Assembly: GCA_902728285.1 (NCBI GenBank)
Contig: CACVBU010000185.1
Coordinates: forward strand, 681,816 to 745,815
From: Clytia hemisphaerica
Lineage: Eukaryota > Cnidaria > Hydrozoa > Leptothecata > Clytiidae
Direction: 5' to 3'
Length of the DNA stretch: 64,000 bases
Of the stretch, positions 15,701-63,069 are shown piece by piece (position 1 is the stretch's first letter; each line of letters begins with the position of its first letter). The notes beneath the pieces were generated by a model. The model was given only the letters and a program-made list of their open reading frames with translations, did not search any database and was not told where the DNA came from. The translations under genes were made by a program, and so were the position numbers.

Positions 15701-18700
15701 TTAACAATGAAATTGTTAGAAGCTAATATGTTGGTGTCTGTAGCTAAACCCTGAATTAATTGAAAAGAGAAAGTTTTATGTATTATATTCTGTTTTAACA
15801 CATTTTACTTAAACAGCCCTTTCGACAAATTATCCCCTAATCTTTACCCTTATTCGACATAATTAGTTTTTGCTAAAAATAGAAATATTCCAGGGAATGT
15901 CTATCATTTTGAGGAAGAAAGAACTTTCGTTTACCAAATATGAATTTTTTTAGAAAATTTCAATTCATTCACATTCATTCACTTGTTCGAATTCATTCAT
16001 TCGCACTCATTAATTCGTTCGTTCGAATTTATTCTTTTGCACTAGTTCGTTCTCGTTCGTTCGTTCGTTTGTTCGAATTCGTTCGTTCGTTCGTTCGTTC
16101 GTTCGTTCGTTCGTTCGTTCGTTCGTTCGTTCGTTCGTTCGTTCGTTCGTTCGTTCGTTCGTTCGTTCGTTCGTTCGTTCGTTCGTTCGTTCGTTCGTTC
16201 GTTCGTTCGTTCGTTCGTTCGTTCGTTCGTTCGTTCGTTCGTTCGTTCGTTCAAATATAAACTTACCAGAGCCTCATTATCTTCACCGACATTCTTATCA
16301 CTAACGAAATCATTTGAAGCAGTAAACACAGCAGCTAAGCCGGAAAATGTAGTTTGGTTTGACACTGTTGATTTCATTATGCTCATCAATTTGGTGGCTT
16401 GCTGGAAAATGAGAGTGAAAAAATAACATAAATTTTTGGGCTAACAATTACCAGATTTAATGACCCTTTGAGGGAGACAATTTTTGATATTTCTTAATCT
16501 TGAGACGTTTTAGAGACTCAATAGCTAATTTATCGTTTTTGGGACCCCTTTGAGAGACTTTTGAGGGTTTAAATAAGGAACCCTTATGGCTCGGATATAC
16601 TCGACATAATAACCCGGAATAACCCGGAATAATGAAATATGAGTTGGGATTGAGAATACAGCCAACTCTCCTTAGTTCGAATCTCTATAACTCGAATCAT
16701 TATGTATGTAATTCAAACTAAAATATTAGTCCCCTCAGCTGAAAAGTGGTTTCATTTACTCTCTGTAATTTAATACTTTCTCTAATTCGAATAAAAAAAT
16801 GTTGGTCCCTTGAAGATCGAATTAGAGAGAGTTAACTGTAAATCGGATGGATCAATATTTTAAAAGTTATCTTCTATCATTACTGTACATATGATTAGTG
16901 CGTAAGCATGAAACTCAGAGTGATACACTTTCTAGGTTTTTAATGAAAGATAACTTTTAAAATATTGATACATGGCTCTGGTTCTTTAACTAATCGAACA
17001 CTCTTATGGAATTGATTTACCACTAAATCGGATGGATAAAGTTTTATAATGATATGAGCAAAAGTTAACTCGTTGAAATTAAAAGGTTCTGAATTTGTTC
17101 TTAAAGTTTGGCACAAAATTGAACCTCGTTTTCCGATGGAAATTGTTCTTATAAAAAATCGTGTATTGCAAATTCAACTTACTTTTCGAACTTCAGCTTC
17201 TTTCGCTTGTTGCGCTACTAAGTCATCTTCGTTAACAATCTCCACCCCGCCAAAATTAGCCTCATTTTCCACTGATTCAGTACCACCACCCTCGCCCGCC
17301 TTTGGAACATTAGCTGATAGGATGAAAACATTGACTAGACTGGCAACTGATTGGGTGTCTGTTGTATCCACGCTGTCTAGAAGTTTGTCTGCTGTCACTT
17401 CAACGGTAGGTGGAGTTTGCCGTACCTTGTGTAAGCAAAATAGCAGATATGTTATATTAAACATTCGATGGAACTACGGCAGCAGTTATGTCATATTAAG
17501 GATAAGATCTACTGCAACTGATACGTTTTTCGTATTTTACAGCAATTAAAGTTGACCTTCGTTATGACTTGTTGACCTGTGACCTGTTGACCTGTGACCT
17601 GCGTTTCGAACTAGCTGTTAATATACTGATGTGTTTACGACAGATAAAAGCAAAGTTGCAGCGCCCTCTAAGACCAAGGCTCGCGCAAACAAAATTGTGA
17701 TGTCTCATGATAAATTTGGATTTGATCAGGGAAGAAAATCTCAATCTAGTTTTATATGTGTGATATCTGTGATAAACATTGTAAAACACTTCGTATTGAG
17801 TAATGATATTAGGTAAATGGGTTGCGAGGGATGAAATTCCTGATAATAGTAAATATAATACCCCTGTTTGGTACTACTTTTGGTGCCAATGACATAATCA
17901 ATATTTCAATCAATTCACAATACTTATTTTTTAAAGATTTTCCTGCTAATATTCATAATTTGTTAACCTGGAAACCCTCTTAAAATTAAGAATCTTAATC
18001 AGGAAAAGGCCAAAACATTGGTGGATATGTCTAGTAGACCAAAAGATAAAAGAAAAATCAATAAATCTTACATAGAGTTCTACAGGCTCGACACGGTATT
18101 GACCGACGCTTGAATAAATATTGATTCGGAGGTTTAGCTTATAATTGTCTTCCCTTTTTCCAATAGTGAAAAGCTGTCTGGAGAAAATTGAACTTCCTGG
18201 TAAAATCCAATCTTGTCCATTTTCTAGTTTATAACGTAGCTCGTAACTCAGAGGTAATTCTTCAGAGATCCAATTTTGACATTGTATATCTGAAAATTCG
18301 TCTACTGTAATATTGTTGTTCCTGTGTGATAAAATATGAAACGATTTGGTTTGTTTCTTATACGAAGAAATTAAAAATATCCAGTTAGCTCAGTCGGTAA
18401 AGCATTCGCCTTGCAATCTAAGGGATGTGGGTTCGATCCCCGGTCACTGACATCTCAGCTAATGAGTAGCTTGGATTGGGTAATCTGATCTAAGTAGTAA
18501 GTCACTGGGAGCTGAGAGTAGGTATGGTGCTTCACCTCAGCACTCGATCTCCCACATCTAGCGCAAATGATAGAAAAGGGGATAAACTCCCACAATCCCG
18601 TTTCCTCCGACAGCAACTAGATGAAACTACTTATTTACCTAAGTAAAGGAGTAAAAATTAGTATTTTAGTTGGTTAAACAATTAGTCAAACACCGTTTTT

Positions 18701-21700: not shown

Positions 21701-24700
21701 ATATAAGTTTTTCATGTTTTATTAAGCTACGTAGTTTCCGCCGTTACGGAAGCAAAAGTTCGAATCATACATTCAAATTGTGACGTCACTCCATTCAAGA
21801 TGACGCATTATTTTGCTTCGAATAGGGTCACTGACCTTTATATAACCTGGACCAATTCCAGCCAAGCAAAATCTTTAATCGGAGTTTTTTTGAAAAGTGG
21901 TACCCTAATAGAGGCACTACTCAATAGCGGTGTAAATGCATCGAAAACGCTAGATCTACTTTCCCTCGAAAACTTTTGATGATATAGCGCCGTTAGATTT
22001 TTAACACTGGAATGGCTTCTTTACGGGTACCAATTCCAAAAAAACTTCAATCAAAGATGGCGAATAAAGCTTGGTCCAGGGATATACAAAGGTCAGTGCA
22101 GAAGTTACATAACTCAACAAAACATGAAGAGACTTTCATTTTCTCTTACCTTTGCCAAACGGCTGGGTTTCATTCCAAACTTTATTCAAACATTTATACT
22201 CAACATTTGTATCATTTCTTTTTTGAATCTCAATTTGAACTTTCGTATCATTTTCAGTTTTCAACCGGCAAAACCATGTGAAATTTAGTCCGGAATATCC
22301 CAATCGCGGATCATCTGGATCCCGACTCTGTTTAGCGTCTATAACAGAATTATAAAAGGAGCCATCTTTATGGCGAGTTGGGAGCGTCTGAAAATCATTA
22401 TTACTGATAACAGCTTGAAGCGGTGATTGGACAATACGGAAATAACCACTATACTGGTATAATTCTCCTTTAAAAGACATGATCAAATTGACAGTGTATG
22501 AACCGGGTTCGTAGCTTCTCGGTTGGACAGTATACGAAAGTTTTCGTAATGAGAGATCGAATGAAAATTCAATTTTATCATTGGTTGAGCCGTCATTAGA
22601 TTTAAATGTAGCATTCATATATTTGTATTCTCTTTGAACAGTATCGACGCAATCTGGTAACTTAACCCAATAACCCACCATTGGGATTGACTGACCACGT
22701 GTGTATTGGAGCGGTTCGCTTGGCGTGCCATAAGAGAAAAATAACTCAGGTACAGAACAGGTTGATACGATGATTTTGACGGTATCTGATTTGATTTCAT
22801 TTTGAAGTTTATCGATGGCTGTGACAGTCAGGTAATATGTAGTTTCACCTGAAAGAGATGAAAAACGAAAGAATTAACATTTAACTTATACTTCGGACCG
22901 TACTCTAAATATACTGGAAGACAAAGGAAGTGCAGGTAGATATGCTTGGCAGGTAATATATTTGATATATTTGAGATTTTATAGATGATGCTATCGTCCG
23001 TTAGAGGGCCAGTAAACGCGGGAAAATTTATATGCACAGAGTCAGAGCGTCAGGCACTGCTTACTCATACTCCACCCCGGGCTAAACACGGTTTTCAAAT
23101 TTATCTCGGTCTCGTCTAGAGATTTTGGTGAATTTATGCACAATTTTGAGACGGGAAATCCTCTTTATATACTTTGATGAGACGGAAGAACTTTTAATTA
23201 GCGAGAGTAAACTGTAACATTTTTTATCGAAAAAAAATACCTGTATAAGTATGTTTCTTGTAGAAAACCTTGAGTCTCTGTCAAAAGGTAAAGTGGACAA
23301 AGCAAGGTTTTTCGACGGAAGAACTATTAATTAGCAACTGTAACATTTGTCAAATAAAAATACCTGTATAAGTATGTTTCTTGTAGAAAACTTTGAGTCT
23401 CTGTCAAAAGGTAAAGTGGTCAAAGCAAGGTTTTTCGACGGAAGAACTATTAATTAGCAACTGTAACATTTGTCAAATAAAAATACCTGTATAAGTATGT
23501 TTCTTGTAGAAAACCTTGAGTCTCTGTCAAAAGGTAAAGTGGACAAAGCAAGATTTTTCGACGGAAGAACTTTTAATTAGCGAGAATAAACTGTAACACT
23601 TTTTATCGAAAAAAATACCTGTATAAGTATGTTTCTTGTAGAAAACCTTGAGTCTCTGTCAAAAGGTAAAGTGGTCAAAGCAAGGTTTTTCGACGGAAGA
23701 ACTATTAATTAGCGAGAGTAAACTGTAACACTTTTTATCGAAAAAAATACCTGTATAAGTATGTTTCTTGTAGAAAACCTTGAGTCTCCATCAAAAGGTA
23801 AAGTGGACAAAGCAAGATTTTTCGACGGAAGAACTTTTAATTAGCGAGAGTAAACTGTAACATTTGTCAAATAAAAATACCTGTATAAGTATGTTTCTTG
23901 TAGAAAACTTTGAGTCTCCATCAAAAGGTAAAGTGGTCAAAGCAAGGTTTTTCGACGGAAGAACTATTAATTAGCAACTGTAACATTTGTCAAATAAAAA
24001 TACCTGCATAAGTATGTTTCTTGTAGAAAACCTTGAGTCTCCATCAAAAGGTAAAGTGGACAAAGCAAGATTTTTCGACGGAAGAACTTTTAATTAGCGA
24101 GAGTAAACTGTAACACTTTTTATCGAAAAAAATACCTGTATAAGTATGTTTCTTGTAGAAAACTTTGAGTCTCTGTCAAAAGGTAAAGTGGACAAAGCAA
24201 GATTTTTCGACGGAAGAACTATTAATTAGCAACTGTAACATTTCTCAAATAAAAATACCTGCATAAGTATGTTTCTTGTAGAAAACCTTGAGTCTCTGTC
24301 AAAAGGTAAAGTGGACAAAGCAAGATTTTTTGACGGAAGAACTATTAATTAGCAACTGTAACATTTTTTATCGAAAAAAATACCTGTATAAGTATGTTTC
24401 TTGTAGAAAACCTTGAGTCTCTGTCAAAAGGTAAAGTGGACAAAGCAAGATTTTTCGACGGAAGAACTTTTAATTAGCGAGAGTAAACTGTAACACTTTT
24501 TATCGAAAAAAATACCTGTATAAGTATGTTTCTTGTAGAAAACCTTGAGTCTCCATCAAAAGGTAAAGTGGTCAAAGCAAGGTTTTTCGACGGAAGAACT
24601 ATTAATTAGCAACTGTAACATTTGTCAAATAAAAATACCTGTATAAGTATGTTTCTTGTAGAAAACCTTGAGTCTCTGTCAAAAGGTAAAGTGGACAAAG

Positions 24701-27700
24701 CAAGATTTTTTGACGGAAGAACTATTAATTAGCAACTGTAACATTTTTTATCGAAAAAAATACCTGTATAAGTATGTTTCTTGTAGAAAACTTTGAGTCT
24801 CTGTCAAAAGGTAAAGTGGTCAAAGCAAGGTTTTTCGACGGAAGAACTATTAATTAGCAACTGTAACATTTGTCAAATAAAAATACCTGTATAAGTATGT
24901 TTCTTGTAGAAAACCTTGAGTCTCCGTCAAAAGGTAAAGTGGTCAAAGCAAGGTTTTTCGATGGAAGAACTATTAATTAGCAACTGTAACATTTGTCAAA
25001 TAAAAATACCTGTATAAGTATGTTTCTTGTAGAAAACTTTGAGTCTCTGTCAAAAGGTAAAGTGGTCAAAGCAAGATTTTTCGATGGAAGAACTATTAAT
25101 TAGCAACTGTAACATTTGTCAAATAAAAATACCTGTATAAGTATGTTTCTTGTAGAAAACTTTGAGTCTCTGTCAAAAGGTAAAGTGGACAAAGCAAGGT
25201 TTTTCGACGGAAGAACTTTTAATTAGCGAGAGTAAACTGTAACACTGTTTATCGAATAAAAATACCTGTATAAGTATGTTTCTTGTAGAAAACTTTGAGT
25301 CTCCGTCAAAAGGTAAATTGGTCAAAGCAAGGTTTTTCGATGGAAGAACTATTAATTAGCAACTGTAACATTTGTCAAATAAAAATACCTGTATAAGTAT
25401 GTTTCTTGTAGAAAACTTTGAGTCTCTGTCAAAAGGTAAAGTGGTCAAAGCAAGGTTTTTTGACGGAAGAACTTTTAATTAGCAACTGTAACATTTGTCA
25501 AATAAAAATACCTGTATAAGTATGTTTCTCGTAGAAAACTTCAGGAACAATTTTGTTAGTTTGATCCACATTGTCTGATACACCATCTCCCCATTCGATC
25601 AAATATTCTGGGAATGTGCCGTTCCTCATATCAACTTTGAGTTCCACTTCAACACCACCGGATATCTCTAAAACTCGGGAAGCTGAGAAAACCGGATCTG
25701 TTTCAATCTGGAGATCACCTAACGGGCAGATGATGACAATGTTTCGTTTGCTAACGCTTGGTGATGGCAAGTTTTCCCAGGTGTTGCCAGCGCTTAATGG
25801 ATTCTTGACTTTGACTGTGATTGCTTTTTGACCACACTCTGAGTAACTGAAATGCGAAAAATTAAAATGAGGGATGGTTAGAGTTCTTCAGATGGGCTAA
25901 ATATGACAAGCTGAATTATCTTTTACGATTTTACGGGGACAAATTTTAGCAAATGTCAATATATTAATCTGGATGCATTCAAATATGCACTCAGAACCAC
26001 GCAATGGTATATGAGTGAAGGTAGAGAGTCTATCACCATATTTCCCTAATACCCTGCCTGGTAGCGCTTGGGATTCGAACACAGTGCATTGCAGTGTAAG
26101 TCTGTGATCGAAACCTTTACACTACCAATCGCCAGAATGTTAGTGAGACACAGTGATAGCCTTATCCAGATGGTGAGTGAATGTATACCGAGTTTATCGT
26201 TCTACAAAATAGTATTTCAGGTTTTGATTTAATCAAAATTAATCCATGGATGAGACAAAATATACAAACCCAATATTTAGACCTTGAGGGTGAGTTGTGC
26301 AGCAGTGTTTAAAATACTTTCCCTTACACGATGTTGTAAGTCCAAAGCAAAGTTAATGAACATTATATGAATGTTGACATAACGTCGCATATCAGCTGGG
26401 GATTAGTCTAGCAAACTAGACGACTAATTCAGACAAATATTGTAATTATAATTTTTCCCGCTCAAAAAAAAATTGTGTTAAAAGTTTTTCATTTGAGTTG
26501 ATTTTGTTTTGAGAGTTTGTTGTTGCTTGATAAATTATTTTCTCGCTACGCAAGTTTCTGCGTAGCTAGCCGGGGATTCTGTAAGGCTGGAACACCGGAT
26601 TCTTTCAGTCGTTTATACAAAATAAACCCCGTAACAATAATCGTGTTATCATATAAAGCCTATACTACTGTATTACACGCATTATAAACGACTCCAGCTC
26701 ACCTTTTAGTGAATGTTCTTTTGATAGTTGGGTTTGCTATTGGAAAGAAATCAGTTTGTACATCCCCTTCACCAAGGTCAATCTCAAAGTCGATTTCATT
26801 TCCATTATGTATAGTAACGTCTATTTGGATCTCCTCGTTTCTGCAAAAAAGAAGGTATTAGCGGTTAATATCTTTGAGTTCAAAACCCGACAGGGCTAGA
26901 CGGGGCCCGCGTAGTTTTAGGTTTTATTTTTTCCATTGAGTTTCAAACCCAAAGGGCTAGAGGCGAGACTACTGGATGCGAAATGAAACCACTACACAAA
27001 CGGCCGATTGAAACTAAAATCTATCACTAGATTTCAAAATATGTAGTCCAAAACAAAGGAACCTCTAGATACAATCCGTTGTCATGATTACTCATTACTG
27101 TGCGTTCTATGCGCGTTTTGGATGGAAAATAAGTGGCTTCAATTTCTTTTGCCTGAGAAGGGTTAAAGTTTCGCCTCTAGCTCTTCGGACTTGAATTACA
27201 ATGATTTTATCCTCACTAGCCTAAAGGGTTTTAAACTCGATGGTTTATGTCATATAAGACTTAGGCTTATATTTGAAAAGTAAACTTTGTGTCAGTTCCA
27301 AGTATGTAAAAATATAGTTTCCTTCACTTTTTTTTATAAGAACCAGTAAAATTTTCTGAGGCTTGGCTGTTCTTATTTTTTTGGCACCTTGAGTCTTAAA
27401 TTGTTCTTATCCTGTTCTTATTTATTGGATGTAATTGGGGTATTTTAGGCGTTATACTAAGTTTTTACTTCTTTGACCCCTAAATTGCTTGAAATTGAGT
27501 ATTTTAAATTGTTTTCATTTTTTGCCGATTTTGAGCCTCATTGTTCTTATAAAATTGTTCTTATATAGAAAAAAATGTACTAGTCTAGCATGCTAGATGA
27601 CTAATCCATACAAAGTAGAAAATACCTTATTACATGAATATGAAGTATTTAAGTATTTAACGGCGTTGAAATTAACACGACTTCAAATTAACACGGATGA

Positions 27701-30700: not shown

Positions 30701-33700
30701 TCGTACAACAATGAACTGATCCGGGATGTTTGACCAATCACCACGCTTTGAAGGTATTGTCAGACTTTCCGTTAAATTAAGACCATCAGGTGTACTACAG
30801 CAAGAACCAGTTGAAATACAATACTCTTGTGATGAACAAACTGGACGTAAGATCTAGAGAAAAGACAAAATGTTGGTTGGATAAGGGCTACTTAGACTAC
30901 ACAATATATTGACGAACAATATTCGACAATATCGTTTTCGGACCGTAATGTACGATTTAAATAACTGGTACTCTATTGTAAAAATATATTTTCTTTCTGT
31001 AAAACATCCCCCTATATTGTGAGAATATTGCAAATAGAGCTTACAACGTATTGTGAACGTCTTTTCAATATATTACCGGCACTCAGCAATATATCGTCAA
31101 TGTATTGCCCGACAATATATTGTGTAGTGTATGTAGCCCTTTAAAGACATCCCCCTCTCACAGATCTCAGGGACCCCCTCCCGCTAGAAAAATTTGCCAT
31201 CACGTTCCCAGTTGAAAATTATATTGCAATTTTTGGTTCCTTACTAAAAGTATTTAAACTAGGTCACAGTGTGGATGTAAACCACACTGAAACGACCGCC
31301 TTCCATCTCGCATCACGCTCGCGAAAGAGCGCGCGCAAATTATTAACGCCTACATGTCATCTCCAGTACATTTTAGATTATTCATTGAAAACAGATTACA
31401 ATATAGTCATTTTTCCTGTCTCGATTATTCAATTCCGAATAAAAAGACATTCGGGGAAAAAAAGAGAAACACCTGGGTAATCTAGTTAAAAAAACCGAAA
31501 GTAAATGGTAGACAAAGTAATGAGCCAAGGCAAAACGAGATTAGCGTACCACTATGAAAGAAACCGCCTCCGGCGGTCGATAAACAAATCCTCACTGAAT
31601 TTTCTGACTGGGAAACAATGGAATTCAAACTCCCTAGCCATAAAAAAAACATCGGAATATTCACCCCCGCCGAGAGTCCGTTATTTTTACCCCCACTGGC
31701 TGAAGAAATCCTACTGGCTGAAGAAATCCTACCGCTTCTTTGCCTACGGGTATATATTAATAAAAATCATCATTAATGAACCTCAACACTATTAATCAAA
31801 AGCCATCATCTACCATGTGGGTATTTTTTGTCAAAATCTTTTATAAGAAAATTTCTTTGAAAAATATTTCTCCAAAAATTACACTACACTAGGAGGGATT
31901 TATTTTGCAACTTTTGTATCAAATCTTGATATAGCCTGCCAAGTAGAGGATTTTTCCCTAACTGGCACCATGGCCTATCAAATATATTTTTAGTAGCTCG
32001 CGCTAATATTTAATAGTCAACAGAACATAGAACGTGATTTGGAAGTCGGTTTATTTTGAATTTCGAAGTTAATATTTTTTTGCCCCGCAATTTTGATCAC
32101 ACAATTTAACCGTACGTAAAAATGATGTAAAATGGACGTTAGAGACGTTAAATGGATGTAAAATAGACGTCAAATGCACATTTTATAGACGTAATCACTG
32201 ACCTTTATATATCTCTTGACCAACCAATATCCGCCATCTTTGATTAGAGTTTTTTTGGAATTGGTACCCGAGAAGAAGCCATTTCAATGTTAAAAATTAA
32301 CGTTTAACGCCGCTACATCATCAAAAGAATTTGAAGAAAAGGAGACCTAGCGCTCTCGATGTATTTACACCGCTATCGAGTAGTGCCGCCATTAGGGTAC
32401 CACTTTTCAAAAAACTCCGATTAAAGATTTTGCTTGGCTGGGATTGAGAAGCTTGGTCCAGAGTTTATAAAGGTCAGTGGACGTAATAACTTACCAGTAT
32501 ATTCAATGATCCAACTTGTTTGAAATCACCTTCAATTTGATAGAGGTATCCATCAGTTTCGAAAGTCAGATCAGGAATGATAAAGAATCCATTTGAAGGG
32601 ACTGATGTTCCACCTAATATCTTGATGTCACGTGATTTCATACCAACTGCCCATACAGAGACGCCTGGAATAGAAAACAAGAAAAAACGTCAAAGGAATG
32701 TTAATCTCTATTTCTATTTGGTTGAGTTGCAGGAGGCTTTGAGGCCTATTTTTGCAACTATAGACGCTTTCAATGAGCGTCCCGTCAGCACCTTGGACTG
32801 ACTACCCAATTCCCCTCACATGGCATGGGTTGACCCGGGCGGTAAAAATCCGTTACGTGGTCTGTTATAATTCCGTAATCAAAACCTTCTTTAAGATGTT
32901 GGAAATTCTCCTCGTAAACGGTCATATAACTTTTACTCTACCAAGATCAAGGCTCTTTGAATAGCGCGCTAAACTTTGAAAATACAATTTTGTAGAATCT
33001 GATGTTGATGTTTTTTAAAGGCAATCTATACATAGAAGAAGCAGTAGCCGAAATGTTCTAAATTAATGGTCTGTATTTTGCAATTTGTCGAATATAACAA
33101 TCAACTGGCAAAACGCACGTTATTTCGTTTTAATGATTGGTTTTAAAAACTGCAATATTTTTTCAAGCTCAGCATTTTTTCCCGTACCGATTCGGACCTC
33201 AATTTTCATACTGTCAATTTGGCTTTAAAGGTTTTATTTTTACAAAAGTGTTCCCGTTTCCTATCAGACACATATTTCATATCAGGACAGTGTCTGCCTA
33301 TTGTTATATTATGCTGATACAAGCAAAAAATGTTTTTCTTTTCGTCTTTCTGACCAATCTTGCTCCACATCCGTGTCAATCCAATGTGAAAAAATTGTGA
33401 ATTAATATTGATAAGTAAGCAAACAATATCACTCTTATTTTAAAACAAAACCTTTAAATTAAACTTTAGATACTGAACAAAACCTACCAGCTGTAACATT
33501 CATTTCTCCATCGTTGATGAGAATATCATTTTGAGTAATTCTGATCAACAAACTTCCGTTTGATACTGAACGACTGTTGAATGTCCATAGACCTTCCTCA
33601 TTCTCTTCTAAGGATGTTGGTCCCCAGATCTTAAGAAAAGTAAACAGAGTATGTCAAATATTATAAAAGAGTAGAAAAGGGCTCAATCTCAGTGGTCAAT

Positions 33701-36700
33701 AAATCTTACACATCAAATTAGCACACATTCTTGAACTTTCCGTAAATTATATGCAGAATTTTGAGAAGTAAAAGCCTCTTTATACAATATGCTTTACCGA
33801 GACGGAAGAACTTTTAATACTAAATCTACACTAGATCTATGGTATCAATACACCTGTCAACCATTAGCATTACAGTCCAAGGGTCGAGTTTATACCAAAG
33901 ATATCTTAAGAAAAGCTAACAGTTCAGAGTTTAAATCTTATTAAACTACAAATGGTTGGCCATACTTGTAGAATCCGTTAACGGAGCAGGGGGGGGGGTC
34001 AGGATCCAGATACCAAACCCAGGGCCGGGGGGGTGGTGTCAATTTTTTTTTTCAAATTTCAAAAAGTCAAGTTGGTATTGATACTTAAATGAGGGGGTGG
34101 GTCCCCCTTTTTTTGAAAATAAGGGAATCTTTAAGTTGGTATCGATACCAAAATGAGGGGGTGGGTCCTCTTTTTTTTAATTTTTGCTGAATTTGAAATT
34201 GGTATCTGACTTAAAATGTTGTATAATGTAAGTAAAGTCTGTTCAGGATATAAGTGTGCACTCTTTTTTCTTTTACCTATAACATTTGAAGGAATTCTTC
34301 AATCTTTATAAATTTGGTATTGTTGGAGAGATATTTGTGAGTGGAACAATTTGAAATAAAAGTCTTTAAAAAAATTCCAAAAACGAATATGAAAATAAAG
34401 AAGAAAAAATGAAGATCTTGTAGAAAAGTGCTATAACTTTCATTTTCACTGGAGAAATTCTTTGATCTTAGGAGGTCATTATTGTGAACAAATTTTACTA
34501 AAATATTTATTCAATATCAAGTTATGACACAAAGTTTAAATAAGTGATTGATCCCAAAAAAGAGCAGAAAACAGCGTTTTTAGGTGTCAATCAGCTTATA
34601 ACTTTGTTTGATATCTTTTGACTGAATGATTATTTTTGAGAAATTTTTTGACAGTAATGACATTTGATGATCAAGGATTCACCTCAGTGAAAATAATAGT
34701 TATAGCACTTTTCTACAAAATCTTAATTTTCATCTTCATTTTAGAATTGTTTTAAAGTCTTTTTTATTTCAAATTGTTCCACTCACTAATATCTTTCCAA
34801 TGATACCAAATTTATAAAGATTGAAGAATTCCTTCAAAAATTATAGGTATATAAAAGAAAAAAGAGTGCACACTTATTGTGAATACACTTTAGTATCCTA
34901 TGCATATAAACTTCTTGCATTTTTACTGATTGCCAATTTAGGGGGGGGGGGGGGGGTTCCCCCTTTTTCAGAAAAATCAGGATTTTCAAGTTGATATCGA
35001 TACCAATTTAGGGGGGTGGGTCCTCCCTTTTTTAGAAAATTGGGGTTTTCAAGTTGGTATTGATACCAATTTAGGGGGTGGTGGTGTCTACTACTTTCAA
35101 ATGTTGAAAAGTCAGGTTTTTGGGCCCTGGGTTGGTATCCTGGACCCTGACCCCCCCCCTGAACGGAGCGAGTTTGAACAATTTTTGCGGGTTTTTGACG
35201 ACACTTTGAGGAACTTTGAAGAACCCACACCGGTGCAGGCGTGTACCCTCACACCCCCCTGAACAGTGGGCACCGGTCGGACCCCCCCAGGACCCCGGCC
35301 AGGACCCCCAGAGGCCGTCCACCACGGTGGTACCCAAAGGTAGTGCTGGCAAAACACTTATATTGAGATAAGAGCCTCACCTCAACTCGATCGCACAAAA
35401 GAGCATGATTTGGTGCCACTGACCTTTATATACCCTGGACAAAGTTTGTCGATCGCACAAAAGAGCATGATTTGGTGCCACTGACCTTTATATACCCTGG
35501 AAAAAGTTTGTCGATCGCACAAAAGAGCATGATTTGGTGCCACTGACCTTTATATACCCTGGAAAAAGTTTGTCGATCGCACAAAAGAGCATGATTTGGT
35601 GCCACTGACCTTTATATACCCTGGACAATAATTTTCGATCGCAGCCAAACAAAATCTTTGATCAGAGTTTTTTTAAAGTGCCTGACGGTAGCACTATTCA
35701 AGATTTCACTTTTCTTTGAATACTTGTGATAATGTAGCGCCGTCTAACGTTAATTTTTCAGCATTCAATGGCTTCTTAGCGGGTACCACTTCAAAAGAAA
35801 AAACTCCGATCAAGGATAGCGGAAAAAGCTTTGTCCAGGGATATATTAAAGGTCAGTGTTTGGTGCTAAAATAAACTTCATCACAACTCGACTTCTCAAA
35901 AAAACAACGTTAACAAAGATAATTGCCACCGCAGGGAGTCTAAAGCGACCGAGGATGGTATTCATAGCTTCACGCCTAAGGACAGTTGGACAAATAGCTC
36001 ACAATTTTGTCACTCTTCTTATACCGGTTAAATGATAGCCCGGTATTAAGGTTTGTCTTTTTCTTATCCCTAGAGAATTAATGAATCTAGGAAATTCCCT
36101 TTTATGGGAAATTCCCTTTTTTGGGAAATTCCCTTTTTTATACCACTCGATTTCTCCAAAAAGCAACGTTTACAAAGATAATAATTATATCCTACCTTAA
36201 CTGATTCACCAAAAGAATCAGGTGCAAAGTCGACATTCACCATTTCCGAGAACTTTAACATGACGTCATCGAAATAGCCTGTGTTCAATTTGACGGTGTA
36301 TTTATGGTAGCCTGGAGTATCGAACATCCATGTGAAAGGATCAGTTGATAAGGTCTTTTCAGTTGCATCGTCATCATCCATTGTGTATGTGATATTGTAG
36401 TTTTGATCATATTCGCCTGTGTGAAAAACATTATGAATCTTAAGGGCTACTTAGACTACACAATATATTAGTGAGTAATATTAGACAATATAGTTTTCGA
36501 ACCGTAATGTACGAGGTAAAAGACAGGTGCTCTATTATAAAAAGGAATTTTCATTTTGTAAACAATTTCCCTATATATTGTTGAAATAGTGAAATCTAGC
36601 TGACAATATATTGCGGACACTTTTTCAATATATTGCCGGTGTTCAGCAATATATTATCAATATGTTGCCTGACAATATATTGTGTAGTGTATGTAGCCCT

Positions 36701-39700
36701 TTACTACAACTTGGATCCAATGCTCTTTTCCCGTCAAAGGGCAACCCTCGTACAATATTTTCTACGATTCAAATCTCCCTCTAATTCCCCAAAAACTGGA
36801 CCTCAATGTTCTGTTTTATTATATTCGCCTGTGTGGAAAGCATTAATCGAATCTTACTACAACTTGGATCCAATTCTCTGTTCCCGTCAAACGGAAACAC
36901 TTGTACAATATTTTCTACGATTCAAATCTCCCTGCAATTCCCCAAAAACTGGACCTCAATGTTCTGTTTTATTATATTCGCCTGTGTGAAAAGCATTATT
37001 CGAATCTTACTACAACTTGGATCCAATTCTCTGTTCCCATCAAACGGAAACACTTGTACAATATTTTCTACGATTCAAATCTCCCTGTAATTCCCCAAAA
37101 ACTGGACCTCAATGTTCTGTGTTATTACTTTAGGCGTACAAACTTTCGCGAACAGAAATTTTCGCGATTTTCGTGAAAATAAATGTGTTTAAAAATTCTA
37201 GGAAGGGCCATTCGCGAAAGTTTATGCTCGCGAAAAGTTCTTAACAAAATAGAAAATCTGTAAAACTTCAAACTTTGAATATAATGTAACTTTTATGGCA
37301 CTTTTTACTAATATGTCAAAGGACAAATGTTTCAAGCGAATCCAAGAAGCATCTGTCCCTCTAAGCCATTTTTTCATGTAAAAATTCTCAATTTGACGTC
37401 TTGATTCGCGAAAGTTTATGCTCCTGAAAAATATTTTTCTGTTGAATTCGCGAAAGTAAAAGTCGTGAATTTTGCAATTCTTCTTCTCGCGAAATTGTAT
37501 GCTCGCCAAAGTTTGTAGCTGGAGTGGAATATTGAGGGAATCGACTCTTAGTATGAAAGTACTTGAGATAGGCGAGCGTATAAACACTCTTGGAAATTCC
37601 TTTTTTTGGTTAAATGTACTTTAAATTACCCAAAATTATCAAATAATATTTGTTCTAGCCAAAAAAGGGGTGCTAAGATCGGACACAGGACTAAGGAAAA
37701 AGGACTGAGGACATAGGACTAAGGACACAGGGATAAGGACACAGGACTAAGGACACAGGACTAAGGACACAGGACTAAGGACACAGGACTAAGGACACAG
37801 GACTAAGGACACAGGACAAGGACTAAGGACACAGGACTAAGGACAGGACTAAGGACACGGACTAAGGACAAGGCTAAGGACACAGGACTAAGGACACAGG
37901 ACTAAGGACACAGGACTAAGGACACAGGACTAAGGACACAGGACTAAGGACACAGGACTAAGGACACAGGACTAAGGACACAGGACACAAGGACACAGGA
38001 CTAAGGACACAGGACTACACAGGACACAGGACTAAGGACACAGGACTAAGGACACAGGACTAAGGACACAGGACTAAGGACACAGGACTAAGGACACAGG
38101 ACTAAGGACACAGGACTAAGGACACAGGACTAAGGACACAGGACTAAGGACACAGGACTAAGGACACAGGACTAAGGACACAGGGACTAAGGACACAGGA
38201 CTAAGGACACAGGACTAAGGACACAGGGGACTACGGACACAGGACTAAGGACACAGGACTAAGGACACAGGACTAAGGACACAGGACTAAGGACACAGGA
38301 CTAAGGACACAGGACTAAGGACACAGGACTAAGGACACAGGACTAAGGACACAGGACTAAGGACACAGGACTAAGGACACAGGACTAAGGACACAGGACT
38401 AAGGACACAGGACTAAGGACACAGGACTAAGGACACAGGACTAAGGACACAGGACTAAGGACACAGGACTAAGGACACAGGACTAAGACACAGGATAAGG
38501 ACAGGGGACTAAGGACACAGGACTACAGGACAGGGAGCAGGACTAGGACACAGGACTAAGGACAGGACTAAGGACACAGGACTAAGGACACAGGACTAAG
38601 GACACAGGACTAAGGACACAGGACTAAGGACACAGGACTAAGGACACAGGACTAAGGACACAGGACTAAGGACACAGGACTAAGGACACACTAAGGACTA
38701 AGGACAAAGGACACAGGACTAAGGACACAGGACTAAGGACATATGACTAAGGACACAGGACTAAGGACATAGGACTAAGGACACAGGCCGTTGCCAGCAC
38801 ATCAGTAATCAAGTGCAACATATGTAGACAGAAAAATGAGAGAGATTTCAACTTACCATTGAATACAATATTTCCAACAGAGCCTGCTACAAATGTTTGG
38901 TTTTCGGTGAATTCAAAGTTCTTGATTCCATCTCCAAGTGCATTTACTGTATAATTACTCGTTTCACATTGTGACAATGATGGTTGACATGTCTCATTTG
39001 CCGGTGTACTGATGCTGGAGAAGTATTTAGAAGTTGGAACGGTTTGCGAACAGAATAGCAGGTCGAATACCTGGTTGGTGAAAGATATATTGATGATTAT
39101 TAAGGCATGTTATTAAACTTTAAGTTACTAGTTGCAATATATAATCACGAACAAAAATCATTGAGAAAACATGAGGAGTTTTATTAACAATATGGTAAAA
39201 CCCTTCCTGATTGGAATTCATTAACCCTTCTTTACTCTCAGGTGCCTAATAAACTTCTAATTACCGGGAGAATGGAGCGATTAGTAAAAAGGCACCACTG
39301 AGAGTACTTAGCCAACAGCAAGGTTTAAGGCGCAAACCACGTATAACTGAGTGTTGATTTCTATGTAGGGCCAGTAAAAGGAGCACTGATAAAATAAATA
39401 CATATCCTCCATAAATTATGAACCAATCTGAAGATCCTCCACTCGTTTGCCCGGTGTAAAGCAAATTATTATACATCCCTGTGTCAAGCAGACCCGGTGG
39501 GACCCCCGCCTACTGGAAAATTTGGCCAGAACTTCGTTCCCGTTGGGGAAAACACCCTCCAATTTCAGTCCCATTTGGAAATTGACCTTTGTTTCATCCG
39601 CATTTTAAATTGATTGCACCTCTATTCTCGTTGGGATTTAGATAGAAATTTCCATCACCGCTTTGGAAAAAATTTTTACTGGAGCTTTGAGACAGGGGTG

Positions 39701-51720: not shown

Positions 51721-52129
51721 TCATGAAGTTGCCAGGAAAAATCCTTTATCTGTGAAACATTCTTTAATAGTAACTGTCACTCCACCTTTGGTGATATCAG
51801 TCAATGTGATCTGATCAATCAATGGCCTTTGTTTCAAGCAATCACATTTAATTTTCGTAATGTCAGTCTTCGGTAAAAGAGTGGCTTCAGTGGTAGACTT
51901 CATCTCCGATTCTGCATTATCTGTTGTTGACTTAGTAGTGAGTATTGTTGTTTTTGATTCTGGAACTTCGATATTTTCTAGTTTATTGGGAACCTCTTTG
52001 GGCTTGGGAATCGCTACATCTGCAGGAATAGTCTTTGCTTTGGTTGATTTTTTAGTTTCTGCAGAGACAAGCCTTGGCGAGGGTGAAACAGGACATGATT
52101 TTGAACCATTTTTTCGGTTAGTTAATACT
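51721..52129 (-). CDS. Cbx-like (Pc class): CBX terminal exon: Ser/Thr linker and Pc box
   Basis: Encodes a Ser/Thr/Lys linker (VSAETKKSTKAKTIPAD) and the C-terminal Pc box, stop TGA at 51723-51721. The exon start is ambiguous: an acceptor AG at 52131-52130 (atcaag) or one at 52074-52073 (cgccaag, better pyrimidine tract). Both keep the frame. Confidence 0.82.
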
Positions 52130-55100
52130 CTTGATGACGATGGCTGTTCTTCTCAGTTTCTTCATTATTGGAACTAAATATTGGTAGACAAAAAAAAGTT
52201 TTATACCACAAGTTAAAATGTGAGGTTCTTTTTTGGCTGAGAGGATACTACAATAGGATAAAATTTTGCGGGATTTAAATTTCGCAGATTTCGCGGATTT
52301 GGGTGTCATTCACACTCCCAAGGGAAATCCGATAAGTCCTTATCCGCGAGATATATTTCTGAACAAAACTCAACACTTCTCAAATAAACTACTTCCTTTA
52401 ACTGGGATCGATGAAGCACTAATGATGCATATTTTAACAACCAACATGTATGATTTGTAAGTAAAAGCCACGTCTTTGTGAAAATATTACAGTATTTCCC
52501 ACAATAGTGCCATTTGCGAAATTAAATCCCCATGAAATCTTAAAATTTCGCGATGAGCTTAACCGCGAAAGTTAATCCCCGCGAGAAAATTTACCCATTA
52601 AAATAGGGGACCGCTTTGTAGATTTTTCGCAAGTTGTTGGTTGGTAGGAAGTTCAGGCGCAAACTTAACTAATAAGAAAAAAGGGGATTAAAAATGCTGG
52701 CCGTTCGTAAGCGTGTGTCTGCTTAAGAAACTATTCGATGATATTGAAAGTCACCGTCAACAAGTAACTGTCATAAATGAAACTCTATTATTCGATACGC
52801 TCCCTTATTCGTTGAAAATCCTATTCCCCTTGAAAATCGAATTAGAGACCATCAAATGTATACCTGTTCAATCGGTCGAGAGTTGGTTCTGTATTCCGAT
52901 CTTCATCTTGTGAGTCATTCAAAATATCTACATCTTCATCTTCGGTACCATGTTCAATATCTTCGATCACACTCCCTTCTACTTCGCCCATCACCATGGG
53001 CGGTGGTGGTGGCGGTTCTTCAACAGTTGTATCTCCTTCATCTTCTTCTTCTTCATGTTCTGTCGCTTCTTCTTTTACATTAACCTTTAACATAAGAAAC
53101 ATGGTAATAATCATCTCTAGGATAAGTAATATTTTTGATCAAAGTTTTTTGAAAGAGGTACCCTATTGGTAGCACTACTCGATGTCGGTGAGAAGGAAAA
53201 TTTATTTGAATTAAACATTGGAAATATAGTAATACAGTGGCCAAAGCAATACCGAGTTTATGTATGTGTGTTTTTCAGCGACGGAGACGGTAACGTTCTA
53301 ATTTGAGTAGATCCTGACCAGCTGAGGACGACGGTAAATCAGCACTTTTACCGTCCTCGATTTTGCGGGGCGGAATTGCGGGTTTTTCCAAATCGCTTCA
53401 GTCACTCTACCGTCCTCAAAAGTGCAAATACATAAACTCGGTATTGTTTTGTCTGAGACGGAGTACGGCTTTTACACAGAAAATCAGCATATAATTCTGA
53501 AAACTTTGGTGAATTATGACAGAATTTTGAGATGGGAAAGCCTCTTTGTAATATACTTCGCCGAGGCCGAAATCCATCTGAGAAGGAAGAACTTTTAACA
53601 CTGGTAATATAATAGAGAATTTTTCATGCTTTTCAAGTTATATACTGTATTATGGTTAAGCTAGACTAGTAAACTAGTCGTTGAAAACAGACCCATATAC
53701 AAAAAAATCAAGCTCCAAATAAAAAGAATCGAAGGGGTGAAGTTGCGTCTCTTTTCTGAATTTCAACGACTAGAAGCTACTTCCCTCAAAAAACGTTGTT
53801 TAATTTTACAACTTTTTTTAGGTTTTTGAGAATCCATTCAACTTTTTTGACTAAATGATATTTCATAGTAACATTGAACATGAGAACATATAAATAAATG
53901 AGCATTTCTAAAAACGCAATAAACAGAAAGAAAAATAAATGCAAACCCGTACGGGTCAGACATATAATACAGAAATCTGTATGTCTCTCCTTACGATTTT
54001 AGGTGAAGAAAAAAAGGCGTTAGAAGTAGCTTCTAGTCGGTTATTTTCCTTTTCTCTCACGCGCGCTGAATAATCAATTAGTGTTTACATTATTTGATTG
54101 ACAGTTTTATTATAAGGTTATAAGTAATAACCGACTAGTTTACTAGTCTATGGTTAAGCGAACATTGGATCCCTTCAACAGATTAGACATTTTCTCCCAT
54201 AATGGCGGAAACTACGCAAACTTAATAAAAAATGAAAAATCTTTCATATATGAACCAAGCGCAATATACTCTTGCCTTCCGACACTCCCCAGTGAAACAC
54301 TGATTAAGCCCTCATTTCTTATAAGCTAGGTTACTCAAAATTGTGTTAAAATATGGTGTACTAAATGAAGACAGCGCAAAAAATGAAAAGAAATAATTCG
54401 AAGGTTTATCATATTTTCTTCCCACACTCTCATAATCATTTACGAATGTAATAATCAATACAATAAAAACATGATAACATTAACATTTCATTTTGTTTGA
54501 AAAAGCGCCAGTCGTCATAAGATTCCTATTACTCTTAGGTGCCAAATAAACGGCCCCCCGCTTGTTAATTTTTCGATTTTTTTCCAACTCCCCGGACGTT
54601 ATTAGGACCCCCCTGTTTATTAATTTTTGAAAAAAATTCCCAGCTCCCAAAAGGAAAGTTTCTTGTTTTACTCTAAAAAGCCTAAATTTAGTCTATTTTG
54701 ACCCTTTTTAGAGTTTTTAAAAGTCCATTTTCCAAACCCCCGGTAATTAGGCCCCCCCCCCGTTTATTTGATTTGAAAAATTTTTCCAACCCTCCCGTTT
54801 ATTCGAACCCCCCCCCCGTTTATTTGGCACTTAAGAGTATTCAGTTCGAATTTTTTTCAATAGCTCTATCCATCGAAATTTGCCATAGTAAAAAGATTGA
54901 GCCAATAAGATTTACTAACCTGCTCTAACTTAGGTTTTTTGGGGGTGATAGACTTCACATTGCCACCTCTTCTCTTCTTTTTACCGCGATTTCCTGGTGG
55001 GTGACTGAAATGCGAAAGACTATAAAAATTATTTACAACGTCATAATACTTCGAGGGGAAGCACCTTGGGGGGGGGGGCTCGAGGCCGCCCTTAAAATTC

Positions 55101-60061: not shown

Positions 60062-60725
60062 ATGAAAGAAGATATCATTATATGCACCGAAAATCGATGT
60101 GTTGACGACAGGGATTCAGATTCGCTAACCTGTGCAAAATGTAAGAGATCCATTCACTACAAATGTTGCATTCCATATTCAAACACTCAAAGCCAACAGA
60201 ACCCAGAAATACATTTGTATCAACTGCGTTGAAGTTGAACCCAAGCTGCTCGAACTGGTCCCCAAGAAGGAAAAGGCTCAACCATCGCTTCAAACGCAAA
60301 ATGAAATTAAACGCCTTCGCAGAGAAATCGACGCATGCGAAGGAATTATAAAAAGTAGTCGTGACTTTGAGGATCACCTTAAGAAACAGCTTGAAGATAA
60401 GGACGCAGATCTCCAACTCTTGAAAAATGATTTGAAAGCTGACCCCGGCCTGCATACACTCGAGTTTGCTGAAAAGAAATTCGAACGAAAGCTTGACGAA
60501 TTCAAGGACAGTATCCTGTCAACAATAAAGAACGAATGCCAACAAGCTATGAAATCGTATTCAGAAGCCACAAAATCTGGTCTCCCTCAACAACCGACGA
60601 GTGACACGAGCGGAATCAAACTTGCTATTAAACAAGCCAGAGACGAAGAGATCGCTTATGAGATGGAGAAGAGGAGAAGACATCATCGTTCACGGAATAA
60701 AAGAAGAAGAACAGGTATGCGATAA
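60062..60725 (+). pseudogene. LINE ORF1, PHD-like finger and coiled coil (frameshifted)
   Basis: ATG at 60062 opens KEDIIICTENRCVDDRDSDS, then LTCAKCKRSIHYKC, a PHD-type Cys/His pattern. Near 60160 the frame shifts and continues as IQTLKANRTQKYICINC, which supplies the last finger cysteines. A coiled coil follows (RLRREIDACEG to about KNDLKAD) with a basic C terminus (KRRRHHRSRNKRRR). The finger and coiled coil are normally one protein. Confidence 0.8.
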
Positions 60726-61128
60726 TAGTGACAAAAATAATCATACTAGGGACTGTGAATGGGCTGATCAATTAATTAAGGATTTGCATGTTTCTTCTAA
60801 GATCAAAAAAATATTTAGAATAGGTAAGAAACCAAATCGTCCACTGTTAATTTGCCTCGATAGTGAAGATGATAAACTTAAGATCATGGGAAATCTCCCA
60901 TCACTTAAAGGTAACGATACTTATAACGGCATAAGTATCACAGAAGACCTGTGTAGGTCCCAACGTGAAAAGTATAAAGAGCTATCACAACAGGCGAAAG
61001 ACCTAAATGATGACCTAGAAACCGATGAATTTATTTATCGGGTTGGAGGATCGTCAAAAAACGGCTTCGACATAAAGAAGGTGTACAACAAAACACAAAA
61101 ACGATACAACAACCCAATCAATCAATAA
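60601..61128 (+). pseudogene. LINE ORF1, C-terminal RRM-like part in shifted frame
   Basis: A second frame overlaps the first from about 60650. It has RRGEDIIVHGIKEEEQ, WADQLIKDLHV, RIGKKPNRPLLICL and ISITEDLCRSQREKYKELS, the RNA-binding module seen in ORF1 proteins of LINEs. It probably joined the coiled-coil part before a frameshift near 60680. Confidence 0.75.
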
Positions 61129-61154
61129 AACCGATCGATAACGATAACGACAGC

Positions 61155-62345
61155 TTGAATGAAAACCCACCTAACAAAAACGATTCAAAAAACACAACCA
61201 AAACAATTAGTGAACTTACTATCATCTACACATATGCAGACCAAATGACATCTAAGAAGAAAAAAGAACTTTTAAAGCACGTCGCTAATGAACAACCTCA
61301 TATAATTGCGATCACCGAAGTCAACACCAAACGGATCTCTGAGAGAAAAGATCAAGACTACTCAATTGAGAATTATTCTACACCATATAAAACTAACATA
61401 GGAATACAAAAAAAGAGAGGAATCATCATTCTAGTCCACAAGTCTATTGATCACCTCATCCTACAAATACAAACGAAAGTTGAATTTGAAGAGACTTGCC
61501 TGTTAGAAATTGCAATGGAGAACAAAGACACCATGTTACTCGGATGTCTTTATAGAAGCCCGACAAAAACTGAGACAAACATCTTCGATGAAAATAACAA
61601 GAATATGAATAAGCTCGTAAAAGATCTCTGCCTAAATCCGAAATACACTCATATATGTCTTATAGGTGACTTTAACTATAAGAAAATCGATTGGGTCCAT
61701 TGGTACTCACCTTGTGAAGAAGATAGCGACGAGGAGAAATTCCTTGATGCTTTAAGAGACTGTTTTTTATACCAACATGTCCTTGAACCGACACGGCGAC
61801 GAGTTATCGACAAACCATCAATACTCGATCTCATCCTTACAGGGGAAGAAAATCAAATTTCCGAGATAAAATACCTTGCCCCACTCCATCTCAGTGATCA
61901 CAGTGTCCTCTCCTTTAAATTCTATGGCTATTTCACAATTAAAAATGAGCTTGATAGATATCAATACAGCAAAGCCAACTACCAGTTTATGAGATCTCAT
62001 CTAAGCCATATCAATTGGTCTATCGAATTCATCCAAAAGTCGATTGAAGTTGATGTGAATGAGAGTTGGGACCTATTCCTAAAGCAAATGATCGAGCTCA
62101 GAAACCTCTATGTGCCACTTACCCAAAATAAGAACAACCTGTCAAATCAAAGGAGGAAAGGGAAGCATCCCTTAGATCCAAAAATTTGTCAGATAATTAA
62201 AGAGAAACGTAAGGCGCATAGAAAATGGATCATCTCACTTCAAAACGACGACACTGAGAGACGTAGAAGGGAGTACGTAAGATGGCGCAACGCCGCTAAT
62301 AGAGCCCTGACTCGCTACAGCAATGGTCAGATACGTGGCTTTTAA
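61155..62345 (+). pseudogene. LINE ORF2 endonuclease domain, RT missing
   Basis: APE-type endonuclease: IIAITEVN (catalytic Glu), LLGCLYRSP, LIGDFNY (Asp/Asn) and HLSDHSVL (Asp-His) all present. At the first catalytic site the usual T-N-x-D/A is T-Y-A, so the Asn is lost. After a helical linker (LDPKICQIIKEKRKAHRKW) the frame ends at 62343 at a deletion junction. 396 residues; intact ORF2 proteins of this class have about 900. Confidence 0.88.
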
Positions 62346-63069
62346 AATTTCATCCCGACAAATGTCATGTACTAACGTTAGGTAAGCCGAATATAATTAA
62401 ACATGTACATCAATACACACTCGGAGGAAATTTACTGAAACATGTACAATTCGAAAAGGATCTCGGAGTTATTGACCAAAATCTCTCATTCGACCAACAT
62501 ATATCAAACCAAGTAAAAAAGGCAAACTCAATGGCTGGTCTAATTAGAAGAACCTTCACGTATCTCACTCCTGAATTATTCCGTAAACTTTACATAACAT
62601 TTGTCAGGCCCCACCTAGAATATGCCCAAGTCATTTGGTCACCGAAACTGAAAAAACACAAAAAACTTATACTATAGAAGGTGTTCAGCGGCGCGCTACA
62701 AAAACGGTTGAAACATGTGGACGACTATGTTATGAAAGCAGACTACAAAGAATTGGAATCCCAAGTCTAAAATATAGGCGTGCGGTAAGTGATATGGTTG
62801 AGATCTTTAAACATTTAAATCACTATGAAAAATCGTGTGTTCCTAAGAAATTTAACCAACGAATAAGACCAATGAGAACACATAATTCTGAACTGGTAAG
62901 AATTTTCGGGAACGATGGTGTCCGTGGACCCCAGAGCAACTCCCTTTACTATCGGGGCATTCAACAGTGGAATAGCCTACCTGAAAAAGTAGTTAAATCA
63001 TCTACAATACAAGAGTTTAAAGAAAACCTCGGTCTAGCTTGGAAAGAGAAAATGTTTGAGTATGATTGA
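62328..63069 (+). pseudogene. LINE ORF2, C-terminal end of reverse transcriptase ORF
   Basis: WLLKFHPDKCHVLTLGKPN, FEKDLGVIDQNLSFDQHI, then VRPHLEYAQVIWSP are the thumb and C-terminal motifs of CR1/L2-like RTs. A frameshift near 62670 shifts into IEGVQRRATK...LCYESRLQRIG...RIRPMRTHN, ending with a stop at 63067-63069. No YADD-box palm remains. Confidence 0.88.

Follow-up and report, generated by a model that had tools for sequence, protein, structure and literature searches.

An exon-end and splice-donor minisatellite in a hydrozoan PKD/REJ gene, probably a mirage-type array whose copied splice sites are ignored

Minisatellites lying on exon-intron boundaries, termed mirages, have been described in amphioxus in Adh3, TnC, the globins BflGb6 and BflGb9, and PGBD5 (PMC3087553, PMC3902484). 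In the descriptions given there, the Adh3 data and RT-PCR of the globins suggested that regular splicing is undisturbed. An intron-gain model was proposed for the amphioxus globins, with the idea of Rogers cited, and, according to a supplement legend, the assembly of a mirage in the B. floridae draft is aberrant (PMC3087553). Internal tandem repeats have been described within human segmental duplications (PMC2812944), and the minisatellite of human IFI6 (6-16) is described as supplying several splice donors (Turri et al. 1995, cited in PMC4526556).

The window, the whole stretch of 64,000 nt of hydrozoan DNA that was analysed, is predicted from its translation to carry a polycystin-1-like PKD/REJ gene, of which 14 exons were modelled by eye (exons 12 and 13 follow the numbering of the original prediction). 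Over the spliced joint, a weak PKD match (PF00801, E 4.3e-4, 20.7 bits, below the Pfam cut-off of 23.5) was followed by REJ (PF02010, E 1.1e-9), in agreement with the expectation that the intron interrupts the last PKD repeat before REJ. This order of domains supports a direct join of the two exons as the predicted normal product. The direct join 25512-22848 is also supported as the normal protein by two paralogues (C928 and C270), which read through this stretch in a single uninterrupted frame without an intron; in a third paralogue, an intron was placed by eye about 12 residues upstream of the position here. The coordinates of all features are given in Table 1.

Table 1. Features of the donor-side array, the probable acceptor-side array and their surroundings in the window (a slash marks the exon-intron boundary)
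Feature	Position	Strand	Remarks
Donor-side array, 19 units (genuine + 18 copies)	23181..25541	minus	Tandem Repeats Finder, unit list, BLAST; BLAST homology of the last unit stops at 23181
Copied 37-nt segments (18), AGACTCAA..CTTATACAG/GT	23241..25425	minus	12/18 preceded by AG (potential mini-exons)
Upstream exon (exon 12 of the original prediction)	25512..25846	minus	Encodes most of the last PKD domain (sequence, translation); 3' end ...ACTTATACAG/GTATTT, phase 1; 25512 is the last exon base of the genuine unit
Genuine donor GT	25510..25511	minus	5'-most among 19 identical CAG/GTATTT donors
True acceptor AG, with the PKD-end/REJ exon beginning at 22848	22849..22850	minus	Leave-one-out 12.7 bits
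Remaining intron	22851..23180	minus	Pieces of dispersed repeats (genome matches, one copy aligned)
Downstream exon (PKD end + REJ start)	22140..22848	minus	3' end not fixed; REJ PF02010, E 3.6e-10
Probable acceptor-side array, 153 bp x 2.8	36701..37127	minus	Tandem Repeats Finder, junction scan, BLAST
Exon whose acceptor the second array copies	36196..36416	minus	Phase fits upstream exon ending at 38857 (by eye)
258-bp inverted-repeat element, TAA duplication	36443..36700	minus	Between second array and true acceptor

The donor-side array occupies 88% of the intron preceding the PKD/REJ exon. Both Tandem Repeats Finder (23233-25539, period 123, 18.3 copies, 91% matches, score 3547; periods 255 and 380 are also listed) and the unit list confirmed the predicted 18 copies of the exon end with its donor, in tandem with the genuine boundary at 25511, which forms part of the repeat. 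Each unit (123-133 nt) combines the last 28-30 nt of the PKD-domain exon with the donor and roughly 93 nt of the intron, and the copies and their position are directly observed. The donor 9-mer CAG/GTATTT shows no difference among all 19 positions. The shared tail reads CTACGAG in the genuine exon and CTACAAG in 18/18 copies, a single base common to every copy and absent from the genuine exon, and 2/18 copies carry ATGCAG instead of ATACAG. Two subtypes and hybrids between them occur, and only 1 of 136 pairs among the 17 full copies is identical. A 32-mer over the array donor had 18 further copies within the window (at most 25% mismatch), while 32-mers over the other 12 modelled donors had none. 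When the genome was searched with a 241-nt probe, all 13 matches lay inside the array, and a dispersed transposon as the source of the unit was rejected on these grounds. For the remainder of the intron, a 345-nt query gave 48 genome matches in sub-ranges, one of them the locus itself, and the final dispersed-repeat piece stops about 12 nt before exon 22848.

At 37 nt upstream of the copied donor, the acceptor-like TTTTGACAG is found with AG in exactly 12 of the 18 units, where about 12 had been counted originally, and with TGG in four and CGG in two. All 18 37-mers end in AG/GT, so that splice signals stand on both sides in most copies, though not in every one (18/18 donors, 12/18 AG acceptors). 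The distance from a donor to the next mini-exon is 86-96 nt, which is probably long enough to splice. As had been argued from the length of 37 nt, the frame is broken by all single (12/12) and double (66/66) mini-exon inclusions and is restored and open in all triple inclusions (220/220); use of a distal donor leads to a stop before the junction in 18/18 cases. This arithmetic, like the identity of the donors, is a direct reading of the DNA.

Splice scores were built on 13 donors and 14 acceptors picked by eye and are therefore rough. The genuine donor scored 6.8 bits, a value reached by 2.6% of minus-strand GT, and since the 19 donor 9-mers are identical, donor strength alone cannot select the correct one. 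The 12 copied AG acceptors scored 2.16 bits (n=5) or 4.93 bits (n=7), while the true exon-13 acceptor scored 12.73 bits (leave-one-out), the second best among the 14 modelled acceptors. The 7/18 copied acceptors at 4.93 bits are above the two lowest-scoring acceptors modelled as genuine (2.3 and -2.2 bits), whose placement may be wrong. A copied exon end serving as recursive-splicing acceptor was rejected (-0.6 bits; 23% of the AG dinucleotides on the minus strand score at least as high).

The array is best read as a mirage-type passive minisatellite in which the genuine donor is used and the decoys are skipped, with a probability of about 0.8. A chance tandem duplication over the exon-intron boundary, covering roughly 30 nt of exonic and 93 nt of intronic sequence, would have provided the seed, and unequal exchange or slippage would have expanded it to 18 copies. 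Splicing would pair the genuine, 5'-most donor with the strong 22849 acceptor and take out the whole array as intron. Two features would make the decoys fail, namely the lower strength of the copied acceptor and the length of the enclosed exon, which at 37 nt is small for exon definition; splicing errors would lead to stop codons and be cleared by nonsense-mediated decay. On the best reading, the array needs no function. The original prediction had left two outcomes side by side, namely that decoy splicing switches or diversifies the last PKD repeat, or that the decoys are ignored. Judged from the sequence, the second is most likely and the splicing switch is not favoured: copied acceptors reach 2.2-4.9 bits against 12.7 bits for the true one, the protein is disrupted or cut short by one or two mini-exons and by any distal donor, and the mirage papers cited above report undisturbed splicing.

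Several features count against ignored decoys: the 19 donors are identical, seven copied acceptors outscore two of those modelled as genuine, and the spacing from donor to next mini-exon is probably sufficient for splicing. In addition, none of the 18 copied donors has decayed, which need not be so under neutrality, although a young or homogenised array would account for it. Polymorphic columns made up 2/30 of the exon-derived and 12/85 of the intron-derived columns (Fisher p 0.35; genuine and incomplete last unit dropped from the 19, columns with fewer than 12 bases dropped). These counts give no support for selection keeping the copied exon or donor, as conservation is not significantly higher in the exon-derived columns.

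Among the alternatives, it is possible though unlikely that the copies act as poison mini-exons, whose low or regulated inclusion would each time bring a premature stop, so that the unit number tunes the amount of full-length receptor. The combination of AG acceptor and donor in 12/18 units, the frame break by every single or double inclusion and the 7/18 acceptors within the range of modelled genuine ones are consistent with this, but the true acceptor is far stronger, the exon has just 37 nt, 6/18 copies have no AG, and published mirages are reported as leaving splicing undisturbed (PMC3087553, PMC3902484). The extended form, an expandable splicing rheostat in which every unit is a potential 37-nt poison mini-exon, the unit number sets the productive share of the transcript and only multiples of three mini-exons give protein, is regarded as still less likely. 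If it were true, boundary minisatellites could, together with the second probable array described below, be a recurrent way to vary this gene's splicing among individuals.

Intron gain in progress, in which the array itself created the intron after the Rogers-type or the amphioxus-globin model, is improbable. The published model (PMC3087553) and the paralogues, two without an intron here and one with its intron upstream, point in this direction; the paralogues are only 24-26% identical, so that the gain or loss may be ancient. As in tandem-duplication intron gain (Rogers; PMC2812944, as described there), sequence bearing a splice signal is duplicated in tandem within a gene. However, a Rogers-type unit has exon sequence on both sides, and the unit here holds the donor side only: no further copies of a 32-mer spanning the 22848 acceptor were found within the window, and the 3' part of the intron consists of dispersed repeats. 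Since the unit has no acceptor-side exon sequence, the array did not make the present intron.

It is very improbable that the array or its copy number is an assembly artefact. Assemblies often go wrong in arrays of similar units, as in the B. floridae draft case (PMC3087553), but the units here differ from one another, with two subtypes and hybrids, and any error would be confined to the count. The least probable alternative, three mini-exons included together as an in-frame 37-residue insert that diversifies the last PKD domain, is in line with the open triples and with a weak three-unit periodicity (Tandem Repeats Finder period 380) that is suggestive but, given four periods tested, not significant (260/5000 shuffles as strong), and is set aside because three weak sites would have to be used and the others skipped, and because the insert reduces the best PKD stretch from 66 to 22 residues (16.2 and 15.7 bits for the two forms, both below the Pfam cut-off).

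A second array in the same gene is a probable acceptor-side mirage. It contains two copies of the acceptor and start of exon 36416, with the copied junctions at about 36981 and about 36828, the better copy matching at 88% over 41 window bases. The 258-bp element beside it has another copy at 30884-31140 (80.7% identical), and when the flanks of the element are joined, the true acceptor falls in register with the array. This array is less certain since most of its unit (about 100 nt) is a dispersed repeat that is also found in tandem on contig C513. In the genome search for this second array, 39/41 matches lay elsewhere, mostly over unit bases 35-133, and the C513 match across the junction (query 35-286, 69%) comprises two tandem dispersed-repeat copies 150 bp apart, separated by a poorly matching stretch. 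The acceptor motif (at most 5 mismatches in 19) was absent at the four other loci examined. The only match of a probe made from the true junction was the junction itself; since even the known copies in the array were missed, this probe was without power.

Further loci were scanned for repeats of the match region, taken together with 80 nt on either side. The 35 loci came from the REJ family search (30, two of them in the present gene) and a protein search (5), with overlapping loci counted apart; each spans about 3-4 kb, so that copies further away would be missed. No repeat was found in 34/35 loci, and one locus (L023) gave a single 27-nt match, which was again the only match when the 33 loci outside the gene were rescanned over the open frame. 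No tandem array was found in L023, and by eye the 27-nt match is no boundary copy. Within the window, 2/27 junctions have a further copy, as have 70/300 random 32-mers, which indicates no enrichment of junctions by this control, a poor one since arrays and dispersed repeats are included. Rfam gave nothing at the gathering threshold on the window, and a bacterial promoter and terminator scan is not meaningful for an animal gene.

In IFI6, as cited, each tandem unit likewise bears a donor at the exon end; in that gene, two of the downstream units serve as donors, giving three mRNAs, whereas here the distal donors meet a stop at once, and this coding consequence (18/18) speaks against a predicted use of the IFI6 type. 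The locus offers a natural test of splice-site choice, with 19 donors of the same 9-mer of which the first alone gives intact protein, alongside 12 near-identical potential mini-exons whose inclusion is easily read from RNA. The closest likeness is to the amphioxus mirages as described in the cited text, in which the start or end of an exon, together with its splice signal, is likewise repeated in tandem within the intron beside the true boundary, donor-side and acceptor-side forms both exist, and unit sizes (10-72, 60, 108 and 150-160 bp) are of the same order as those here (123-133 and 153 bp). Those mirages have 2-7 units (the counts for Adh3 and TnC not included), while 18 copies are present here, and unlike them, going by the same descriptions, 12/18 units enclose a complete 37-nt mini-exon. 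Their host is a cephalochordate and the present one is a hydrozoan cnidarian, a member of the Hydroidolina going by its mitochondrial contig, which indicates that arrays of the mirage kind occur outside chordates. The kind is already known in lancelets and its cnidarian member is new; this gene adds a cnidarian to the hosts of boundary minisatellites, with one array that is clearly of this type and another that probably is.

A large PKD/REJ gene lies on the minus strand of the window. When the exon at 25846-25512 was joined to 22848, a PKD (PF00801) match was found across the joint (E 4.3e-4, 20.7 bits), which is weak since the curated cut-off is 23.5 bits, and in the joined translation it was followed by REJ (E 1.1e-9). 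The intron between these exons (25511-22849, minus strand) is 2663 nt long, and 88% of its length is array 1, the minisatellite at 23181-25541. In the 3' part of the intron (22851-23180), pieces of several dispersed repeats follow one another, and the final piece stops about 12 nt before the exon.

Coordinates of REJ matches, the second array and its neighbouring element
Feature	Position	Strand	Details
REJ (PF02010) match	exon 22848-22140	-	E 3.6e-10
REJ (PF02010) match	exon 18321-18072	-	E 6.4e-7
Array 2 (probable boundary array)	36701-37127	-	153-bp x 2.8; contains copies of the 36416 acceptor
Inverted-repeat element	36443-36700	-	258 bp, ends AGGGCTAC...GTAGCCCT, TAA duplication; between array 2 and acceptor
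Second copy of the 258-bp element	30884-31140		80.7% identical to the 36443-36700 copy

The intronic minisatellite of 18 copies of an exon end with its splice donor, as described in the original prediction, was borne out, array 1 comprising 19 units including the genuine exon end. Each copy starts with the terminal 28-30 nt of the exon and continues through the donor into about 93 nt of intron. Unit lengths are 123-133 nt, and two subtypes (a 7-nt indel and a 3-nt indel) as well as hybrids of both were observed. The donor 9-mer CAG/GTATTT is identical in 19/19 units, so that, judged from sequence, the donors alone would not be distinguishable from one another; a single-base difference separates the genuine exon (CTACGAG) from all 18 copies (CTACAAG). 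Among the 17 full copies, the column comparison gave no sign that the copied exon is kept (variable columns 2/30 exon-derived vs 12/85 intron-derived; Fisher p 0.35). Identity between units peaked at lags 3, 6, 9 and 12, but 260 of 5000 shuffled unit orders gave a three-unit periodicity as strong, with four periods tested.

All 18 copies are terminated by AG/GT, and an AG lies exactly 37 nt upstream of the copied donor in 12/18, CGG being present in two and TGG in four, which agrees with the expected 12 or so potential 37-nt mini-exons; each donor and the mini-exon that follows it are separated by 86-96 nt. In computed inclusions, the reading frame was broken by one (12/12), two (66/66), four (495/495) and five (792/792) mini-exons and restored by three (220/220) and six (924/924), in line with the predicted frame arithmetic for one and three. 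From the distal donors a stop was reached before the junction in 18/18, the stop lying four codons past the exon end.

Splice sites were scored with matrices derived from 13 donors and 14 acceptors whose positions in this gene had been assigned by eye. On this scale the genuine donor scored 6.8 bits, a value equalled or exceeded by 2.6% of minus-strand GT. The copied acceptors scored 4.93 bits in 7/18 and 2.16 bits in 5/18, and the six without AG scored -1.7 bits or less, while the true acceptor of the exon starting at 22848 reached 12.7 bits (leave-one-out), indicating that the copies are possible yet poorer competitors; the modelled genuine acceptors of the gene span -2.2 to 14.5 bits. The first donor probably pairs with the strong distant acceptor, the copies being skipped or the resulting products decaying. 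The anatomy, frame outcomes and relative site scores of array 1 were shown; a function is possible, though nothing calls for one, and use as a splicing switch is unsupported.

Array 1 probably arose by a boundary-spanning tandem duplication, enlarged via unequal exchange or slippage. That the array made the intron was ruled out, because its unit lacks the acceptor side and what remains of the intron is built from fragments of dispersed repeats. In the genome assembly (417 Mb, 951 contigs; window at C133:681816-745815), junction-reaching alignments were obtained for three paralogues. Those on contigs C928 (frame of 361 aa, 26% identity) and C270 (frame of 327 aa, 24% identity) have a single open frame through the junction, and in the one on C252 an intron was placed by eye about 12 residues upstream of the junction position, indicating that the intron is not universal in the family. 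A match on C671 in the protein search also spans the junction.

A scan of the window for extra copies of modelled junctions covered 13 donors and 14 acceptors, 27 in all. Two had such copies, the array 1 donor (18) and the 36416 acceptor (2), which is no enrichment by count alone since 70/300 random 32-mers also have a further copy. The better of the two acceptor copies matched at 88% identity (E 3e-5) along 26 nt of intron plus 15 nt of exon, and when the flanks of the 258-bp element were joined, array 2 continued in register into the exon. A TAA duplication, as this element has, is found in PIF/Harbinger-like elements, a putative type for it. A simple reading is opposed by the fact that about 100 nt of the array 2 unit is a dispersed repeat, with 39/41 genome matches elsewhere. 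On another contig (C513, locus L062 119-367) this repeat occurs twice in tandem at a spacing of about 150 bp, which also opposes it and suggests a possible tendency of the repeat to duplicate in tandem. The acceptor motif (≤5 mismatches of 19) was absent from the four other loci examined for this repeat. Most likely, the repeat adjoined the acceptor and both were then duplicated jointly; the reverse order, with the exon start derived from the repeat array, is possible but ranked lower. Array 2 is thus a probable second boundary array of the gene, and the exons of other REJ genes (33 loci, about 3-4 kb each) had no clear boundary array.

Other repeats were also observed. A 14-bp x 79 minisatellite (37681-38787) starts about 70 nt past the donor at 38857, in the intron of array 2, and a GAAC/GTTC microsatellite of 52 units (16045-16252) starts about 14 nt past the donor that follows the exon end at 16267, so that the intron there opens almost at once with it. 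A dispersed repeat pair (21773-22098 and 32196-32540) is in opposite orientation at 78%, the alignment tail having a weak 46-nt overlap with the exon end at 32495. The minus-strand frame 51721-52152, with a CBX7_C motif (PF17218, E 1.1e-7), is probably the last exon of an adjacent chromobox (Polycomb) gene. Plus-strand frames at 60129-63069 resemble a non-LTR retrotransposon, and frame 61032-62345 (plus strand) matched an endonuclease/reverse-transcriptase family (PF14529, E 1.3e-13).

The mitochondrial contig (C900, 14,551 bp) has rnl on one strand, two tRNA matches, and on the other strand cox2, atp8, atp6, cox3, nad2, nad5, rns, nad6, nad3, nad4L, nad1, nad4, cob and cox1, the protein genes being named from translations and their order. 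This is the order given for Podocoryna, likened there to Hydractinia (PMC13119343), and is consistent with the description of non-aplanulatan hydroidolinans (PMC4655093). By this gene order the source of the window is a hydroidolinan hydrozoan.

Array 1 is real and its class is already known; the taxon, the high copy number, the enclosed 37-nt mini-exon and the presence of another, probable array within this gene are new. No cnidarian boundary minisatellite was found in the literature searched, which is weak evidence of absence since most subscription papers lay outside its scope. In a human IFI6 minisatellite, repeat units act as donors (PMC4526556), and 60- and 108-bp examples were described for amphioxus PGBD5, with Adh and TnC cited by the authors (PMC3902484). 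In amphioxus, according to PMC3087553, mirages are duplications resembling minisatellites that copy the end or the start of an exon, with units of 10-72 bp in Adh3 and of 150-160 and 157 bp in globins; splice signals are present in many but not all copies, copy number is unstable, and Adh3 data and RT-PCR suggested normal splicing. Compared with these descriptions, array 1 is of the same kind as the amphioxus mirages.
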